This document shows positions 1-8,114 of a stretch of DNA of 12,914 nucleotides, piece after piece. Positions within the stretch are counted from its first letter, which is position 1. Each line of letters starts with the position of its first letter. The notes beneath the pieces are model-generated. The model searched no databases, was not told where the DNA came from, and was given only the letters and a program-made list of their open reading frames with translations. The translations under genes were made by a program, and so were the position numbers. Origin of the DNA: a bacterium (GTDB taxonomy: Bacteria; Vulcanimicrobiota; Vulcanimicrobiia; Vulcanimicrobiales; SCRA01); NCBI GenBank assembly GCA_028869325.1, contig JAGWST010000107.1, positions 1-12,914 of the forward strand, read 5' to 3'.

Positions 1-209
1 ATCGCGTCGTGGCGGCGGATGCGCTGGAGCCCGTCCTCGGGCATCATGCGGCCGTGCTGCGCATACCACTCGCAGCTCCATGGCAGCACGTCCCACGCGA
101 ACGAAAAACCGTAGCGCTTGCCCACGGCATCCAGCACACGCATACCCGCCGGAACCACCTCTTTGCCGATGCCGTCGCCGGGGATGACGGCGATGCGATA
201 CTCCGCCAT
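1..209 (-). CDS. Tartrate / D-malate dehydrogenase-like protein (IDH/IMDH family), 3' end beyond window
   Basis: The first 69 codons of a beta-decarboxylating dehydrogenase are visible, reading leftwards off the window. The N-terminus [20 protein letters not shown] carries the family hallmark IPGDGIGKE. Residues 43-65 ([18 protein letters not shown]) match the tartrate dehydrogenase/D-malate dehydrogenase branch (TtuC, DmlA/YeaU) better than isopropylmalate or isocitrate dehydrogenase. Family members oxidise a 2-hydroxy diacid with NAD and usually decarboxylate it in the cytoplasm, D-malate giving pyruvate and CO2. The ATG at 209 is preceded by a strong AGGAGG site. The gene diverges from the lyase gene at 389 across 179 bp, so the two may share control. 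The catalytic Lys, Tyr and Asp residues lie outside the window, so the substrate cannot be fixed. Confidence 0.88.
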
Positions 210-388: not shown

Positions 389-1759
389 ATGACCGCTACG
401 GCGATCGACTCTGCCATCTTTCGCGACATCTTCAGCACCGAGGCGATGCGCCGCGTCTTCTGCGACGAGAGCCGCGTGCAGTACTATCTCGATGTCGAGG
501 CGGCGCTGGCGCGCGTGCAGGCGCGCTTGGGCATCATCCCCGCCGAGGCCGCCGAGGAGATCTGCCGCCACTGCTCCGCCGGCGAATACGATTTGGCGGC
601 ATTGAAGCGGCAGACGGAGCGCATCGGCTATCCCGTGCTCCCCGTGGTGCAGCAATTGGTGGCGCTCTGCCGCGACGGTCTAGGCGAATGGTCGCACTGG
701 GGCGCCACCACGCAGGATATCACGGACACCGCCACGGTCCTACAGATTCGCGACGCCCTGGCGCTAGTGGAGGAAGAGATCGTCGCCATCTGCGAGTCGC
801 TCGCGGAGCTGGCACGCCGCTACCGCGACACGCCGATGGCGGGGCGCAGCAACCTGCAGCAAGCGGTGCCGATCACTTTCGGCTACAAGATGGCGGTCTT
901 GCTGGCGGGCTTCCAACGCCATCGCGAGCGGCTCGCGCAACTGCGCCCGCGCGTGCTGGTCGGGGAGCTTGGCGGCGCCGCCGGAACGCTGGCATCGCTG
1001 GGCGCCGACGGCCTGCGCGTGCAGGAGGCGCTGATGGCGGAGCTGGGACTCGGGCAGCCCGTGATCGCCTGGCACACGATGCGCGACTGCTTCGCCGAGG
1101 TCGGCTGTTTCCTCGGCCTGGTCACGGGCACGGCGGCCAAGATCGCTACCGACGTGAAGCTCATGATGCAGACCGAAGTAGAAGAGGCGTTCGAACCGTT
1201 CGCGGAGGGGCGCGGCTCCAGCAGCACCATGCCGCAGAAGCGCAATCCGATCTCCTCGAACTACATCATCGCCTGCACCTCGATGGTGCGTCAGAACGTG
1301 GCCGCACTGCTCGACGCCATGGTTGAGGATCACGAGCGGGCCACCGGCCCCTGGGAGATCGAGTGGATCGCCATGCCGGAGATCTTTCTGCTCTCCGCCG
1401 GCGCGCTCGCGCAGACGCGCTCTCTGGTCGCCGGGCTGCAGGTCGACGCGCAACGCATGCGCTCCAACCTCGATCTCACACGCGGCCTCATCGTCTCCGA
1501 GGCGGTGATGATGGGCCTGAGCCCGGCGCTCGGGCGGCAGCGCGCGCACGATCTGGTCTACGACGTCTGCCGCAAGGTGATCGTAAGCGGCCGCCCGTTT
1601 CTCGACCTGCTGGCGCTGGAGCCGGAGATCACGCGCCATCTCGACCGCGAGGCGCTGGCGCATCTGGTGGACCCGGCCAACTACCTGGGGCTCTCCGGCG
1701 AGATGGTCGATCGCGTGCTGCGGTACGGATCGCGGCCCATGCCCGTGGACTCTTATTGA
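389..1759 (+). CDS. 3-carboxy-cis,cis-muconate cycloisomerase / adenylosuccinate lyase family protein
   Basis: This 456-residue protein belongs to the class II fumarase/aspartase superfamily, whose homotetramers add to or eliminate from a succinyl-type substrate in the cytoplasm. The signature loop GSSSTMPQKRNP spans residues 276-287 and holds the catalytic serine. The upstream motif HWGATTQD (103-110) matches the HxGxTSxD region, and RSNLQQAVPITFG (153-165) and LGGAAGT (194-200) are typical of the PcaB-like branch. Length is normal. ATG 389 has an AGGAGGG site 5 nt upstream. PcaB opens the carboxymuconate ring in protocatechuate degradation, but no other pca gene is present, so family membership is certain and the reaction is not. 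The neighbouring diacid dehydrogenase suggests a role on dicarboxylates. The H-NOX gene starts 107 bp downstream on the same strand. Confidence 0.9.
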   Translation: MTATAIDSAIFRDIFSTEAMRRVFCDESRVQYYLDVEAALARVQARLGIIPAEAAEEICRHCSAGEYDLAALKRQTERIGYPVLPVVQQLVALCRDGLGEWSHWGATTQDITDTATVLQIRDALALVEEEIVAICESLAELARRYRDTPMAGRSNLQQAVPITFGYKMAVLLAGFQRHRERLAQLRPRVLVGELGGAAGTLASLGADGLRVQEALMAELGLGQPVIAWHTMRDCFAEVGCFLGLVTGTAAKIATDVKLMMQTEVEEAFEPFAEGRGSSSTMPQKRNPISSNYIIACTSMVRQNVAALLDAMVEDHERATGPWEIEWIAMPEIFLLSAGALAQTRSLVAGLQVDAQRMRSNLDLTRGLIVSEAVMMGLSPALGRQRAHDLVYDVCRKVIVSGRPFLDLLALEPEITRHLDREALAHLVDPANYLGLSGEMVDRVLRYGSRPMPVDSY

Positions 1760-1866
1760 CCGTGAAAACGCCGATGAGTCATGGAGAGCCTCCGCCAGCG
1801 TACCGTGTGATTATCGAACGGGTGTGCGGGGTCATTTTTGCGCGTCTACACTATTTGGAGGTTGAT

Positions 1867-2409
1867 GTGCACGGATCGATTCACTTGGCGTTGAAGCAGT
1901 ATGTGGTTGAGGTCTACGGCGCGAGCACCTGGGAACAGATTCTCGCCCAGTCCAACGCGACGATCAAAATGTACCTTGCGACGTCCTCGTACCCGGATGG
2001 GGAGATCACGGCGCTGATCACTGCGGCGTCGGCTCTCGCCAACCGCCCGGCGAACGACATGATCGAGGACTTCGGAAGGTATCTCATGCCGAAGCTGATA
2101 CAGAACTATCGTTCGCTCGTGCGGCCGGAGTGGCGCACGCTCGATTTTCTGGAGAACGCCGAGCAGAGCATCCACTCGGTCGTTCGAGTGCAGAACCCGG
2201 GGGCAAGACCGCCGATCTTACGCTGCGTGCGGCACGGCGCCTCGGAGCTGCAGATCATCTACTCCTCGGCACGTCGACTCTGCGCGCTGGTTCGGGGCAT
2301 GGCCTTGGGAGCCGCGCAGCATTTCGCTGAAGTAGTGATGGTTGATGAGCGCCAGTGCATGTTACATGGAGCGGAATCCTGCGACTTCAGGATGCGCGTC
2401 GTGGCATAG
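1867..2409 (+). CDS. hnoX: Stand-alone H-NOX (haem nitric oxide/oxygen binding, HNOB) sensor protein
   Basis: This 180-residue protein has the normal length of a bacterial single-domain H-NOX, a cytoplasmic haem sensor that binds NO and passes the signal to a kinase or cyclic-di-GMP enzyme. It begins VHGSIHLALKQYVVEVYG, the usual H-NOX N-terminus. The proximal haem ligand is His103 (AEQSIHSVV), followed by PP at 115-116. The haem-propionate motif YxSxR is present as Tyr132-Ser134-Arg136. These positions are one above His102, Tyr131, Ser133 and Arg135 of the well-studied Thermoanaerobacter protein. The distal Tyr140 of that oxygen binder corresponds to Leu141, so NO rather than O2 binding is predicted. 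Cys139, Cys164 and Cys172 resemble the zinc-site cysteines of Vibrio/Shewanella H-NOX. The GTG start has GGAGG 5 nt upstream; an in-frame ATG at 1774 would add 31 residues with no family match. No partner kinase or GGDEF gene adjoins it. Its 5' part is near 50-57% G+C, unlike its neighbours, which suggests transfer. Confidence 0.9.
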   Translation: MHGSIHLALKQYVVEVYGASTWEQILAQSNATIKMYLATSSYPDGEITALITAASALANRPANDMIEDFGRYLMPKLIQNYRSLVRPEWRTLDFLENAEQSIHSVVRVQNPGARPPILRCVRHGASELQIIYSSARRLCALVRGMALGAAQHFAEVVMVDERQCMLHGAESCDFRMRVVA

Positions 2410-2410
2410 T

Positions 2411-2439
2411 CCGGCAGGCTCGTAGTGGCTACTAGCCGG
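2411..2439. terminator. Possible weak hairpin at the convergent junction
   Basis: CCGGC at 2411-2415 pairs with GCCGG at 2435-2439, enclosing GTAG-TGG-CTAC (2422-2432). The structure lies in the 22-bp gap between the stop codons of the H-NOX and glucosidase genes and runs into the last codons of the latter. There is no run of T on either strand, so this is at best a weak bidirectional stop signal. Confidence 0.22.
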
Positions 2440-3772
2440 CGCCGGCCGTGCGCCGGGACGCGGCGATCATTCGCGTGTACCAACGTCCGCTGTCCTTGAC
2501 GATGCGGCGCTGCGTCGCGTAGTCCACGTAGATCAATCCGAAGCGCTGGCGGTAGCCCTCGGCCCACTCGAAGTTGTCCAGCAGCGACCAGACGAAGTAG
2601 CCGGCCAGCGGTACGCCCGCGGCGATCGCGCGCCGCGCCTGGATGACGTGCGCCTCCAGATACGCGATGCGCTCCGCATCGTGCACGCCGCCTTCGGCAT
2701 CCGGCCGATCGGGCAGCGCCATGCCGTTCTCGGTGACGTAGATCCGGCGCGGGGCGTGCCGCCGCGCGATGCGCACCAGCGTCTCGAAGAGGCCCTGCGG
2801 GTAGACCTCCCAGCCCATCGTCGTGCGCCGCTCGGCCGGCGCCTCCAGCGCGACTCCAAACGGGTTGCCCCCCTGTGCGTCGTGAGCCACGAAGAAGCGC
2901 GTGTAGTAATTGACGCCAAGAAAGTCGATGGGCGCGGCGATCGCCGCCATGTCGCCCTCCGCCACCGTCAGGGCGTCCAGCTTCAGGGGCGGCGGCACCG
3001 TATGCTCCTGGTAGCCGCGGCCGAAGACCCGATCGAGGAACCAGAGATTGAGGTTCACGTCGGCCGCCTCGGCGGCGGCAACGTCCAGCGGCGCGCTGGA
3101 GGCCGGGGCGATGGGGCTGAAGTTGAGCGTAACGCCGACCTCGGCGCGCGGCGCGTTGCGGCGGAGCACCGGCACCGCGAGCCCATGCGCCAGCAGCAGA
3201 TGGTGCGCCGCCTGCAGGCCGAGCTGCGGGTCACGGTATCCCGGCGCGTGCTCCCCCCGCGCGTAACCCAGCCACGCGCAGACCCACGGCTCGTTGAGCG
3301 TGATCCACGCGGCGACGCGGTCGCCCAGCGCACGCGAGACCGCCTCCGTCAGCTCCGCGAAGGCATATGCCGTCTCGCGTCCGATCCAGCCGCCGAAGCG
3401 ATCGTGAAGCGCAGCAGGGAGATCCCAATGGTAGAGCGTGGCGTAGGGGCGAACGCCCGCCTCCAGCAGACGATCGACCAGACGGCGGTAGAAATCGAGG
3501 CCGCGCTGGTTCACGCGGCCGGTGCCCTGCGGCAACACGCGTGGCCAGGCGATCGAGAAGCGGTAGGCGTCGACGCCCAATTGGCGCAGGAGCTCGACGT
3601 CCTCGTCCATCCGGTGGTAGTGGTCGCAGGCGACCGCTCCCGACTCGCCGTTGGCGATGTTGCCGGCCACGGCGCAGAAGCGGTCCCAGATCGATGCGCC
3701 GCGTCCGTCCTCGCGCACCGCGCCCTCGATCTGGTAGGCCGCCGTCGCGGCGCCCCAGACAAACGCGTCCAT
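2432..3772 (-). CDS. GH1 family beta-glucosidase
   Basis: This 446-residue protein is a glycoside hydrolase family 1 enzyme, a retaining (beta/alpha)8 barrel that releases glucose or galactose from beta-linked disaccharides and aryl glycosides. It starts MDAFVWGAATAAYQIEG, the standard GH1 opening. The acid/base glutamate is Glu161 in TLNEPW, and the nucleophile is Glu348 in YVTENG. The sugar-binding motifs YHWDLP (114-119) and WSLLDNFEW (395-403) are intact. There is no signal peptide, so it acts in the cytoplasm on imported sugar. The start at 3772 is chosen by alignment to the family; an open frame continues to 3841 but adds nothing GH1-like. The only Shine-Dalgarno-like sequence (GAAGAG) lies inside a perfect hairpin at 3778-3792. 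The gene stands alone, convergent with H-NOX and divergent from the CoA-transferase; no sugar transporter adjoins it. Confidence 0.94.
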   Translation of the reverse strand: MDAFVWGAATAAYQIEGAVREDGRGASIWDRFCAVAGNIANGESGAVACDHYHRMDEDVELLRQLGVDAYRFSIAWPRVLPQGTGRVNQRGLDFYRRLVDRLLEAGVRPYATLYHWDLPAALHDRFGGWIGRETAYAFAELTEAVSRALGDRVAAWITLNEPWVCAWLGYARGEHAPGYRDPQLGLQAAHHLLLAHGLAVPVLRRNAPRAEVGVTLNFSPIAPASSAPLDVAAAEAADVNLNLWFLDRVFGRGYQEHTVPPPLKLDALTVAEGDMAAIAAPIDFLGVNYYTRFFVAHDAQGGNPFGVALEAPAERRTTMGWEVYPQGLFETLVRIARRHAPRRIYVTENGMALPDRPDAEGGVHDAERIAYLEAHVIQARRAIAAGVPLAGYFVWSLLDNFEWAEGYRQRFGLIYVDYATQRRIVKDSGRWYTRMIAASRRTAGAG

Positions 3773-3777
3773 CGATG

Positions 3778-3792
3778 CGCTCTTCAAGAGCG
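3778..3792. promoter_or_regulatory. Perfect 7-bp-arm inverted repeat just upstream of the glucosidase start
   Basis: CGCTCTT-C-AAGAGCG reads as a perfect inverted repeat with a one-base centre. On the glucosidase strand it is CGCTCTT-G-AAGAGCG and ends five bases before the ATG at 3772. The likely ribosome binding sequence AAGAG is in the 3' arm. It may be a repressor operator on DNA or a helix that hides the ribosome binding site in mRNA. A one-base loop cannot close in RNA, so the top pairs would open and leave about a 5- to 6-bp stem. Confidence 0.45.
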
Positions 3793-3912
3793 TCGAAACG
3801 GGCCCTCCAGCTCGTCTCGGAGGCTTCCTGCATGGCCGCACTGTACCGAAAATGGCCTTGCAGCCTGTACCCGCCAGGGCCGGAGCGCCGGGCGGCCAAC
3901 GATGCTCTTCTC

Positions 3913-5127: not shown

Positions 5128-6399
5128 TCACGACGGCCAGTCCAGATGGCAGACCTTGGCTTGGGAGGCCTCCGATGCGGCGATCTGGCTCGGCTCGCGG
5201 CGGTCGACGATGTTGAACAGATCGTAGGGATCGGCGGGAGTGCCGTCGGGACGGATCTGGCCGAACCAAACGGGCCACATCAGCGAGTGGTCGACCTTGC
5301 GATAGAAGGGATCACCGTTCCAGACGCTCTTGAACGGCGATCCCGCCAGCGCCCGCGCCAGCTTCACCCCATCGGTGCTCTTGGTCTCGTTGATCGCCCA
5401 ACAGATGCGGTCGAGCGCGACGTAACCGAAGCAGGATTGCGCGGTAGGCGGCATCTTGTGCCGCTTGCGATACTCTGCGACGAAGTCCGCCGCGACCGCG
5501 TTGTTCTTCTTGAAGACCAGGTCGCTGTTGTAGTACCACTCGACGCCCCAGAAGCCGACGCGAGCCGACTTCGGTAGCTCGAGGATCGACTCGAATTCCA
5601 GGATCGGGCCGGCGACGGGGTACTTCTTGAGCAGCCCAAAGGTGTCGGCCTGTTTGATCGCGTTGACGAAGTCCTGCCCCGCGACCAAGAAGATCAGGCA
5701 ATCGGGCTTGGCGGCATCTACCTTCACGAGGTACGAGCTGAAGTCCGTGGTGCCCAGCGGCGCGAGCTCGTTTGCCACGACTTGGCCGCCTACCTTGTTC
5801 AGCACGTCCTGGTAGCCGGCGGCCAGCGAGTGGCCGAACGCGTAGTCGGGTGTGAGCATGAACCACTTCTTGCCGAACTTCTCCGCGATGGAGTAGCCGG
5901 TCGCGTGGGTGAGCATCCATGTGGTATGGCACGTCTGGAAGGCGCTCCAATGGCAGCCCGCTCCGGAGATTTGATCGGCGTGGCCGCCCATGTCGACGAA
6001 GAGCGTCCCCATCGTGGCCGACGCCGCGCTGTCGGAGAGCGTGGCGGCGCTGCTCAGGGTTCCGCAGAGCGCGACGCAGCTCTGCTCGTTGACCAGTTGA
6101 CGCGCCTTCTGCACGCTGGTTCCCGGCTTGCTGTGATCGTCGGCCTTGATCACCTCAACTCGGCGTCCCATCACGCCGCCGCGCTTGTTCCAAGCCTCGA
6201 CGGCCAGCTCCAAGCCGCGCATGTTGCTCTGCGCCTCGGCGGAGTAGACGCCGGTGATGCCGGATACGTATCCGATTTTCAGGGTCTCCGCGGCCTCGCC
6301 GAGCCGCGGAATGAACGCAGGGATTCCGGTGGAGAGCGCGGCGGCCCCGACTCCGGCGCCCTTGATGAATCTCTCCCGGGAGATCGACCGGTACGACAT
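5128..6399 (-). CDS. ABC transporter substrate-binding protein, branched-chain amino acid type (Peripla_BP_6)
   Basis: This 423-residue exported protein belongs to the type 1 periplasmic binding proteins of the Leu/Ile/Val, urea and aromatic-acid group. The mature part begins near residue 40 with LKIGYVSGITGVYS, then RGLELAVEAWNKRGGVMGR (61-79) and VIKADDHSKP (83-92), the normal first lobe. The N-terminus ISRERFIKGAGVGAAALSTG resembles a Tat signal (SRRxFLK), but the arginine pair is split by Glu9, so export may be Tat or Sec. ATG 6399 has AAGGAGG 7 nt upstream. The gene follows the dehydratase by 41 bp on the same strand and is probably co-transcribed with it, so the ligand may be that enzyme's substrate or a relative. 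No permease or ATPase gene is in the window, so it must work with components encoded elsewhere. Confidence 0.92.
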   Translation of the reverse strand: MSYRSISRERFIKGAGVGAAALSTGIPAFIPRLGEAAETLKIGYVSGITGVYSAEAQSNMRGLELAVEAWNKRGGVMGRRVEVIKADDHSKPGTSVQKARQLVNEQSCVALCGTLSSAATLSDSAASATMGTLFVDMGGHADQISGAGCHWSAFQTCHTTWMLTHATGYSIAEKFGKKWFMLTPDYAFGHSLAAGYQDVLNKVGGQVVANELAPLGTTDFSSYLVKVDAAKPDCLIFLVAGQDFVNAIKQADTFGLLKKYPVAGPILEFESILELPKSARVGFWGVEWYYNSDLVFKKNNAVAADFVAEYRKRHKMPPTAQSCFGYVALDRICWAINETKSTDGVKLARALAGSPFKSVWNGDPFYRKVDHSLMWPVWFGQIRPDGTPADPYDLFNIVDRREPSQIAASEASQAKVCHLDWPS

Positions 6400-6440
6400 C
6401 GATGTGCCTCCTTCCGCAGGTGAATCCGGTGCTTGAGTGA

Positions 6441-8114
6441 TTACGAGCGTTTCCCGAGGACTGCGCCCTCGGCATACGATTGTACGGTCTGTGCATACAG
6501 CGAGAGCCATCCCGGGCGCAGCCTTCGGGCCGGCCGTTGCCAACGGCCCAGGCGCCGCTGCAGCTCCTGGTCCGCGACCTCCAAGACCAGACTGCCGCGG
6601 TCGACGTCGATGGCGATGAAGTCACCGTTCTCGACGATCGCCAGCGGGCCGCCCAGCGCGGCCTCCGGCGTCACGTGTCCGATGCAGCAGCCCCGCGTGG
6701 CCCCCGAGAAGCGCCCGTCGGTGACTAGCGCAACGCTGCGCCACAGGCCGCTGCCGACCAGCGATCCCGTGAATGCCACGGCCGATTCGAGTCCCGGCCC
6801 GCCCGAGGGGCCGAGGCCGCGCAAGACGACGACGTCCCCCGCGCCGATGATGCGCCGCTCGATCGCCTGCACGGCGTCGTCGACGCTGGTGAAGACGCGC
6901 GCCGGCCCACGGTGAGCGCGCATCTCTTGCGGCACCGCGGACGATTTGACGATCGCGCCGTCGGGGGCCAGATTCCCGCGCAAGATGGTCAGTGCGGGGC
7001 TTGCGGAGGCCGGATCATCGAGCGCGCGAATCACCGCTCCCGCCGCAGCGGAGATCTGCGCCAGATGATCGCCGATCGTGCCCCCCGCGACCGAGCGCGC
7101 CTCCAGATGCAGGAGCGGCGCCAGCCGTTGCATCACTGCCGCAGTGCCGCCAGCGCGCTCGAAATCCTCGATCTGGTCGTTGCCGTTCGGACGAATCGCG
7201 CAGAGCTGCGGTACCTGCCGCCCGAAGCGCTCGAAGAGCTCGATGACGGAGACCCGCAGCTCCGCCTCGCAGGCGATCGCGGCGAGATGATGCACGACGT
7301 TCGTCGAGGCGCCGATAGCCAGCGCAACCTTGACGGCGTTCTCGAACGCCGGCGCCGTCATGATGGCGCGCGGGCGCACGTCGTTGCGCATTAGCTCTAC
7401 GATCCGCCGCCCCGCGCTCCGAGCGATCTGGCCCGCGCGCTCGCCGGCGGCGGCGATCGGCGTGGTTCCCGGCAGCGTCATGCCCAGCGCCTCGGCCAAG
7501 CAGTGCATCGAGTTGGCCGTGCCCAAGAAGGAGCAGACTCCCGGCCCGGGACAGGCCCGCTCCGCGAGCTCGATCACCTCCGCGAGGCCGATCTCGCCAT
7601 TGCCGAGCGCGCCGGGCGCCTCCAGCAGGCTCTCCATATCGATGCGGCGGCCCTCGTGGCAGCCGGGGGCGCCGTAGCCGCCCGCGACGACGATCGACGG
7701 CAAATCCAGGCGCGCCGCGGCCATCAGCTCGGCCGGCAGCGTCTTGTCGCATGCGCCGATCAACACCATGCCGTCGAAGCGAAAGCTCTCCACGGCCACT
7801 TCGATCTCGAAGGAGATCAGGTCGCGCGTCACCAGCATGTAGCGCGCATCGGCAAGCGTCTGCAGATCTAGCATCGGGCAGGTGAAGATCTCGAAGCCCA
7901 GGCCGCCCGCTTCATAGATGCCGTCTTTGACGGCGGCGGCTAGGCCGCGCAGGTGGAATCCGCAGGGCCCGATCTCGTTCCAGGGCGTGATGACCGCGAT
8001 CTTCGGACGCTCCAGGTCCTCGCTCTTGATGCCGACGGAGCGCAAGTGTGCCCGCCGGCTCGCCCAGGCGGCCGAGCCGGCATCGAAGTTGCTACGCCAC
8101 GTCCCTTCCGACAT
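6441..8114 (-). CDS. IlvD/Edd family dehydratase (dihydroxy-acid or sugar-acid dehydratase)
   Basis: This 557-residue iron-sulfur enzyme removes water from a 2,3-dihydroxy acid to give a 2-keto-3-deoxy acid. Three cluster cysteines are in place: Cys51 ([10 protein letters not shown]), Cys122 ([10 protein letters not shown], with Lys124 at the metal site) and Cys194 ([15 protein letters not shown]). The C-terminal motif [11 protein letters not shown] (465-475) holds the catalytic Ser470, and IGHVTPEA (478-485) follows as usual. Length fits dihydroxy-acid dehydratase, but the GACDKTLPA variant and catabolic neighbours favour a sugar-acid or other hydroxy-acid substrate over valine/isoleucine synthesis. 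ATG 8114 has a modest AAAGG site. The gene leads a probable two-gene unit with the solute-binding protein and diverges from the aldehyde dehydrogenase operon; the 8170-8187 palindrome overlaps its likely promoter. Confidence 0.92.

Follow-up and report, generated by a model that had tools for sequence, protein, structure and literature searches.

A solitary H-NOX gene from an uncharacterized subfamily of short proteins with an altered Cys/Glu site

RESULTS

Genes surrounding the H-NOX gene

The stretch of DNA analyzed here, referred to as the window, comprises 12,914 nucleotides and represents one whole contig (C536), so that only 1.9 kb is visible upstream of the H-NOX gene. It belongs to a bin of 2.53 Mb in 539 contigs, a MAG that is 82% complete. 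The genes and features of the window are compiled in Table 1. The H-NOX gene follows a lyase gene on the same strand after a gap of 107 nt. Because the leftmost gene is divergent and the GH1 gene is convergent, any transcript unit that includes H-NOX is limited to these two genes. Bounded on both sides, this unit leaves no room for an operon partner hidden beyond the contig end; a partner could lie further off. No sigma-70-like promoter site was found in a scan of positions 1 to 2700.

Table 1. Features of the window
Feature	Position	Strand	Evidence
Isocitrate/isopropylmalate-dehydrogenase-like gene, start only, cut by contig end, divergent	3..209	-	PF00180
Fumarase/aspartase-superfamily lyase (PcaB/PurB-like; Lyase_1)	389..1759	+	PF00206, PF10397; TIGR02426, 368 bits (cut-off, 355.75)
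Ribosome-binding site GGAGG, 5 nt ahead of GTG start	1857..1861	+	Read directly
H-NOX (HNOB) gene, stand-alone, 180 aa	1867..2409	+	PF07700, AlphaFold2 model, PDB fold match
His103 codon, proximal heme ligand	2173..2175	+	Kept in 122/122 listed relatives
Tyr132-x-Ser134-x-Arg136 codons	2260..2274	+	Kept in 122/122 listed relatives
Cys139 codon, predicted zinc/redox ligand	2281..2283	+	122/122 listed relatives; aligns with S. oneidensis zinc ligand
Glu161 codon, fourth zinc-ligand position (His/Gln in characterized H-NOX)	2347..2349	+	Glu in 105/122 listed relatives
Cys164 codon, predicted zinc/redox ligand	2356..2358	+	122/122 listed relatives
Cys172 codon, predicted zinc/redox ligand	2380..2382	+	122/122 listed relatives
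GH1 beta-glucosidase, convergent with H-NOX gene	2432..3841	-	PF00232, TIGR03356
CoA-transferase III, after GH1 gene		+	Profile scan
Peripla_BP_6 substrate-binding protein	5128..6543	-	Profile scan
IlvD/EDD dehydratase, after Peripla_BP_6 gene		-	Profile scan
Aldehyde dehydrogenase, SDR, FAD oxidoreductase, TetR, in this order after IlvD/EDD		+	Profile scan
Cut frame at contig end	12624		No Pfam match

A sequence-only reading of this DNA had named a lyase-family enzyme, a GH1 glucosidase, and a CoA-transferase as neighbors of H-NOX, and all three were matched by profiles. It had also stated that no signaling gene follows for at least 10 kb downstream. In agreement with this, no kinase, GGDEF/EAL, or chemotaxis gene was detected among the ten proteins scanned and the two cut frames of the 12.9-kb contig. 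The term "catabolic cluster" was appropriate only in part: catabolic-type neighbors are present, but the genes lie on both strands, and "cluster" is therefore a loose description.

Contamination of the MAG by the window contig was considered and is not supported. In tetranucleotide composition, the contig correlated at 0.969 with a set of further contigs from this genome (85 kb), slightly low compared to the values of 0.972 to 0.990 obtained for six chunks of that set, and the Peripla_BP_6 gene family is common across the genus. For the latter, 9 further matches of more than 500 bases were found in the same genome, and each of the remaining three genus genomes had 13 to 14, at 64 to 72% DNA identity. 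The Peripla_BP_6 protein of the window is thus part of a paralogue expansion of about 10 to 15 long matches per genome.

The window protein is an H-NOX protein by profile, predicted fold, and heme-site residues

The GTG start of the H-NOX frame falls in the same alignment column as the starts of 26 aligned homologues; a longer start for the same gene (215 aa) is given in database entry P0002. The Pfam profile HNOB (PF07700) matched the translated protein with an E value of 1.4e-32 and 113.3 bits (cut-off, 25.5), and V4R (PF02830) gave a marginal match of 31.2 bits (cut-off, 31) over residues 134 to 177. No further Pfam domain was found in the 180 aa, and HATPase_c_2, AAA+, and DNA-binding domains were absent. 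The top PDB fold match of the AlphaFold2 model (pLDDT, 87.2; pTM, 0.83) was the H-NOX protein of Shewanella oneidensis (4u99), with a TM score of 0.90.

The sequence-only reading had made its assignment depend on this fold, which the model indeed displays. It had described a full-length H-NOX protein with His103, Pro115-116, and Tyr132-x-Ser134-x-Arg136. All of these residues were found, with Pro115-116 present in addition to His103 and YxSxR, and both the HNOB match and the modeled fold agree with the description. Tyr132-x-Ser134-x-Arg136 is the heme propionate motif. Since H103, P115, Y132, S134, and R136 are kept in all 122 listed relatives (see below), and P116 in 103 of them, the match to H-NOX is not a product of chance. 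We therefore assign the window protein to H-NOX on the basis of its profile match, its predicted fold, the proximal His, and YxSxR.

A subfamily of short H-NOX proteins with three Cys and mostly Glu161

A search with the single window sequence returned 28 proteins, its own entry included, and V4R is listed for 26 of these. The profile search, whose length limits of 0.55 to 1.75 times the query excluded long fusions, yielded at least 514 proteins with E values up to 0.001 among 7997 scored candidates; the best 120 were listed. Residues were compared in 122 of 125 proteins, leaving out the window's own translation, its database copy, and a 140-aa fragment. The compared relatives are 178 to 206 aa long. 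H103, Y132, S134, R136, C139, C164, and C172 each occur in 122/122 of them, a conservation that is partly due to selection, as these relatives scored highest against a profile that was itself derived from the family. Position 161 is occupied by Glu in 105 relatives, Asp in 9, Gln in 7, and His in 1. Residue 141, Leu in the window protein, is V, L, F, or I throughout. By its numbering, we take this position to correspond to the distal Tyr found in O2-binding H-NOX proteins; a hydrophobic residue is as expected for an NO-selective protein.

Sources named among the matches listed include Longimicrobium, Gemmatimonadetes, Chloroflexota, and Planctomycetes, and a Rokubacteriota contig carries one subfamily H-NOX that matches P0003 at 61%. 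In a phylogenetic tree, the window protein was split with a support of 95/60 from S. oneidensis H-NOX and three H-NOX proteins of the same phylum (G065, G135, and G139). This tree contained several long branches, its bootstrap had not settled, and it gave no well-supported placement of the window protein inside the subfamily. The protein belongs to a large uncharacterized H-NOX subfamily whose listed members are short and whose Cys/Glu site is altered.

Comparison of the predicted site with characterized proteins

The H-NOX protein of S. oneidensis (SO2144; 4u99, 2kii) binds zinc via Cys139, Cys164, Cys172, and His161, and these Cys residues are conserved in H-NOX groups 2 and 3, with His or Gln as fourth ligand (PMC7108781). 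The window protein shares with it the fold, His103, YxSxR, and the aligned C139, C164, and C172, but is only 25% identical. It thus has the three Cys of groups 2 and 3 at 139/164/172, whereas position 161 holds Glu instead of His or Gln. Moreover, the S. oneidensis protein grouped with classical H-NOX proteins in the tree, outside the subfamily of the window protein.

Three Cys and a Glu are the zinc ligands of DmpR, a phenol sensor with a V4R domain (Cys151, Glu172, Cys177, and Cys185; PMC7264223). With V4R of DmpR, PoxR, and MopR, the window protein shares the profile match at residues 134 to 177 and the three Cys and Glu, and its last two Cys are 8 residues apart, as in DmpR. Its Glu precedes the second Cys by 3 residues, compared to 5 in DmpR. 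Unlike these V4R regulators, it keeps the heme His and YxSxR and has neither an AAA+ nor a DNA-binding domain. That HNOB, V4R, and a three-Cys cluster are related has been pointed out before (PMC5847659). Cys139, Glu161, Cys164, and Cys172 may form a Cys3-Glu zinc site, possibly a V4R-like version on a heme-competent H-NOX protein.

V. cholerae H-NOX is reported to be activated by oxidation of the same Cys, for which heme is not needed, and a "Cc" H-NOX (read as Caulobacter) by Cys oxidation and not by NO (PMC12329717).

H-NOX copies in the genome, genus, and phylum

A protein with the same sequence as that encoded at L029 (genome G077, from the class of the window genome) carries the name Candidatus Eremiobacter antarcticus, which makes Eremiobacterota the most likely phylum. 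Across the phylum, HNOB was detected in 11 of 149 genomes (13 loci), including three of the four genomes of the genus and none of the 57 other genomes of the order. A second copy in the window genome (G000:C204) is 35% identical to the window protein and has Gly in place of His103. The copies of two further genomes of the genus, G001 and G002, have Ala at this position, and G003 has no H-NOX. All three copies that lack the heme His keep the Cys triad and Glu161 (L002/L003:801-1346, minus strand; L006:8549-9136, minus strand; L007:8915-9538, plus strand). H-NOX proteins without the proximal His have been described as group 5 (PMC8738867). The window protein shares the H-NOX fold with this Paracoccus-type group, and the second copy likewise lacks the proximal His, but group 5 has mostly Pro at the His position and, according to the same source, no conserved Cys, whereas the second copy has Gly together with the Cys triad (Gly or Ala in the genus).

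The second copy adjoins a convergent EAL gene. In G001 and G002, H-NOX is part of a conserved row on one strand, in which it follows an RND efflux gene and a small gene that looks DUF302-like by eye and precedes an NMO-like gene; Pfam covered the efflux and NMO-like genes of G001.

The Cys triad is present at nine of the 13 phylum loci: the window, the second copy, G001, G002, G076, G088 (twice), G077, and G132. It is absent from G065, G139, G135, and, by eye, G138. All four of these triad-less genes directly adjoin a signaling gene on the same strand, encoding PAS-HisKA-HATPase with HNOBA (G065), HisKA-HATPase-REC (G139), HNOBA-HisKA-HATPase-REC (G135), or HNOBA-PAS-SpoIIE-HATPase_c_2 (G138). 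At none of the nine triad loci was a kinase or cyclase gene found immediately next to H-NOX on the same strand within the stretch read; at least five of these loci lie near contig ends (the window, the second copy, G002, G132, and the first copy of G088). It should be noted that neighbors were identified partly by Pfam and otherwise by eye, and that no P value is given for this difference because the loci are kin by descent. Homologues that consistently sit beside a kinase had been named as evidence against an isolated H-NOX. This pattern was observed for the triad-less relatives, but not for the Cys-triad relatives read.

A cut CHASE3 gene lies about 2.1 kb downstream of the first H-NOX copy of G088. 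In G076 (L026:6007-7625, plus strand), H-NOX overlaps by 4 bases with a gene for a probably exported protein, cupredoxin-like by eye and with no Pfam match over the cut-off.

H-NOX loci outside the phylum

Other H-NOX genes besides that of the window are solitary, and the neighbors of H-NOX genes are of several kinds. In the genome_contigs set, a search with the single protein found no relative, and a profile scan gave four loci. The Rokubacteriota gene (L008) is accompanied by AMP-ligase, RidA, and gamma-glutamyltransferase genes, and no signaling gene was seen there. In Xanthocytophaga (L009:7495-9031, plus strand), H-NOX is preceded by the gene for a single-domain response regulator and followed by a globin gene, and in Hymenobacter (L010:6452-8543, plus strand) it directly follows an ECF sigma factor gene and an RskA-type anti-sigma gene. 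Both of these H-NOX proteins are without the Cys triad. An HNOB-PilZ fusion of Magnetococcales (L011:7926-9281, plus strand) has Leu aligned to the heme His.

An H-NOX match was present in 16 plasmid records, and four regions with incomplete gene tables were read. The Bradyrhizobium plasmid gene has EAL and GGDEF neighbors. On the Natrinema plasmid, a PAS protein gene is next upstream (730 bases, same strand) and an oxidase-family gene is next downstream. No annotated signaling neighbor was found in the incomplete gene tables of the Hymenobacter volaticus and Pontibacter akesuensis plasmids.

Links to RsbW-type domains and candidate partners

At two of the nine triad loci (the second copy of G088 and G077), HNOB is fused to HATPase_c_2 (64 to 65 bits). 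These RsbW-like fusions (L028:2272-3234, minus strand; L029:6045-6983, plus strand; P0126 to P0130) stem from Candidatus Eremiobacter and relatives, and five database proteins with this architecture, the query among them, were found. The fusion of Candidatus Eremiobacter antarcticus, from the same phylum, shares H103, YxSxR, and the Cys triad with the window protein; it differs in being 312 aa long, in carrying an RsbW-like ATPase domain, and in having Gln at position 161, whereas the window protein ends after HNOB. In G138 (L022:445-3074, minus strand), the triad-less H-NOX gene overlaps its HNOBA-PAS-SpoIIE-HATPase_c_2 neighbor, which has an RsbU/RsbW-type output.

The sequence-only reading had proposed a search of the genome for kinases and GGDEF proteins, and these do occur away from H-NOX, with 20 HATPase_c, 11 GGDEF, and 4 MCP matches. 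HATPase_c_2 was matched 12 times, 7 times over the cut-off, including four RsbW-like proteins (C448, C27, C54, and C457). C448 is encoded alone, C27 lies between RsbV-like and sigma-factor-like genes (by eye), and C54 is within a SpoIIE-HATPase_c_2 protein. None of the four qualified as an orthologue of the fused ATPase domain, as identities reached 29 to 32% at best. In a quick tree, the fused domains fell together not with these four but with free proteins encoded in G077 (C4, at about 50% identity, and C7, at about 40%) and in G088 (C18).

DISCUSSION

We consider the window protein to be, with fair probability, a stand-alone heme-competent H-NOX that senses NO, and perhaps redox state, and acts in trans on an unlinked signaling enzyme. 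According to this model, it would bind ferrous heme and, given the Leu at the distal Tyr place, would take up NO and not O2, and by analogy to other zinc H-NOX proteins the Cys3-Glu site would hold zinc and may sense oxidants. The activated protein would then act on a signaling enzyme encoded elsewhere, possibly of the partner-switching type. Two points suggest action in trans: those H-NOX outputs that have been described are kinases or DGC/PDE enzymes on a separate chain, and fusions or adjacent genes in the phylum carry HATPase or HATPase_c_2 domains. Characterized members of two-gene H-NOX systems mostly adjoin an HK or DGC/PDE gene, which the window gene does not. Unlinked partners are available in the genome, which has the kinase, GGDEF, MCP, and RsbW-like matches elsewhere as well as the second H-NOX copy without heme His, and with a MAG that is 82% complete a partner may also be missing from view. 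The loss of the heme His from three relatives in the genus raises the possibility that the core function of this lineage is something other than heme sensing. Contrary to a partnerless picture, signaling genes do occur near triad-type proteins or their near relatives: EAL by the second copy, CHASE3 near the first G088 copy, and the PAS protein upstream in Natrinema.

The catabolic surroundings invite other readings. H-NOX could directly regulate the neighboring lyase or its pathway, forming a co-transcribed, NO- or redox-controlled metabolic unit, as the two genes share a strand and are isolated between divergent and convergent genes. The 107-nt gap and the separate ribosome-binding site of H-NOX argue against this, however, as does the lyase itself, which has no close relative in the remaining three genus genomes (best, 37% identity) and, by eye, was seen at none of the other H-NOX loci read. 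A conserved lyase-H-NOX pair was therefore rejected, a link of H-NOX to the catabolic genes found no support, and control of the lyase appears very unlikely. The same surroundings would suit a V4R-like sensor of small (aromatic) molecules, or a pure redox sensor, in which the Cys3-Glu site is the decisive part and heme is either dispensable or missing in vivo. The V4R match just over the cut-off, its occurrence in most proteins of the single-sequence search, the ligand set of DmpR (PMC7264223), and the heme-less genus copies that retain the Cys triad and Glu are all consistent with such a sensor. We regard it as doubtful, since a heme His and YxSxR kept in every listed relative argue for a retained heme function, and since the window protein has no DNA-binding or AAA+ output domain.

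Alternatively, the gene could be a relic or a recent transfer that has lost its partner and has no function in this genome. Its GC content of 0.606 is the lowest of eleven genes measured, its GC3 is 0.78 compared to 0.83 to 0.89, HNOB is absent from the 57 order genomes outside the genus, and genus mates have either heme-less copies only (G001 and G002) or none (G003). On the other hand, all key residues are intact, the frame is clean and preceded by a ribosome-binding site, and other triad-type members are solitary as well, so that a decayed gene seems improbable to us. The claim that the gene is isolated, with a partner elsewhere or an unusual target, stands insofar as the gene is solitary, like several relatives of the same type; an unusual target class, RsbW-type ATPases, is hinted at only by fusion and adjacency in relatives.

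The preferred model of action in trans can be extended to this target class. In the Eremiobacterota, H-NOX might pass NO or redox signals on to transcriptional control by partner switching (RsbU/RsbW-RsbV-sigma). Some members would do so through their fusion to an RsbW-like ATPase, one through its coupled HNOBA-PAS-SpoIIE-HATPase_c_2 protein, and the window protein by acting in trans on a free RsbW-like kinase. Two kinds of H-NOX link to RsbW/RsbU-type domains within one phylum make the RsbW class a reasonable first guess. As none of the four free RsbW-like proteins is orthologous to the fused domain, we keep this guess tentative and give it a low probability.

The window protein belongs to a known family, of which it represents an unstudied form, solitary and with a Cys3-Glu site, and the H-NOX-RsbW connection in its relatives is the more striking lead. 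Knowledge of H-NOX biology comes from a small number of proteins, mainly from proteobacteria, whose genes lie next to one for a kinase or cyclase. The short Cys/Glu subfamily, which occurs in several little-studied phyla with no obvious linked output where read, represents a part of H-NOX signaling without a known target. The RsbW-like ATPase fusion offers a concrete target class and, if this holds true, would link NO or redox sensing to sigma-factor control. In the open-access literature searched, no link of H-NOX to RsbW, SpoIIE, anti-sigma factors, partner switching, or Eremiobacterota was found; passages of PMC4976288 and PMC6473078 contain such terms, apart from each other. A 2022 review states that NO-sensing hnox genes of facultative anaerobes usually adjoin kinase or DGC/PDE genes, and the legend of its Figure 6 lists several non-signaling families of hnox neighbors (PMC8738867).
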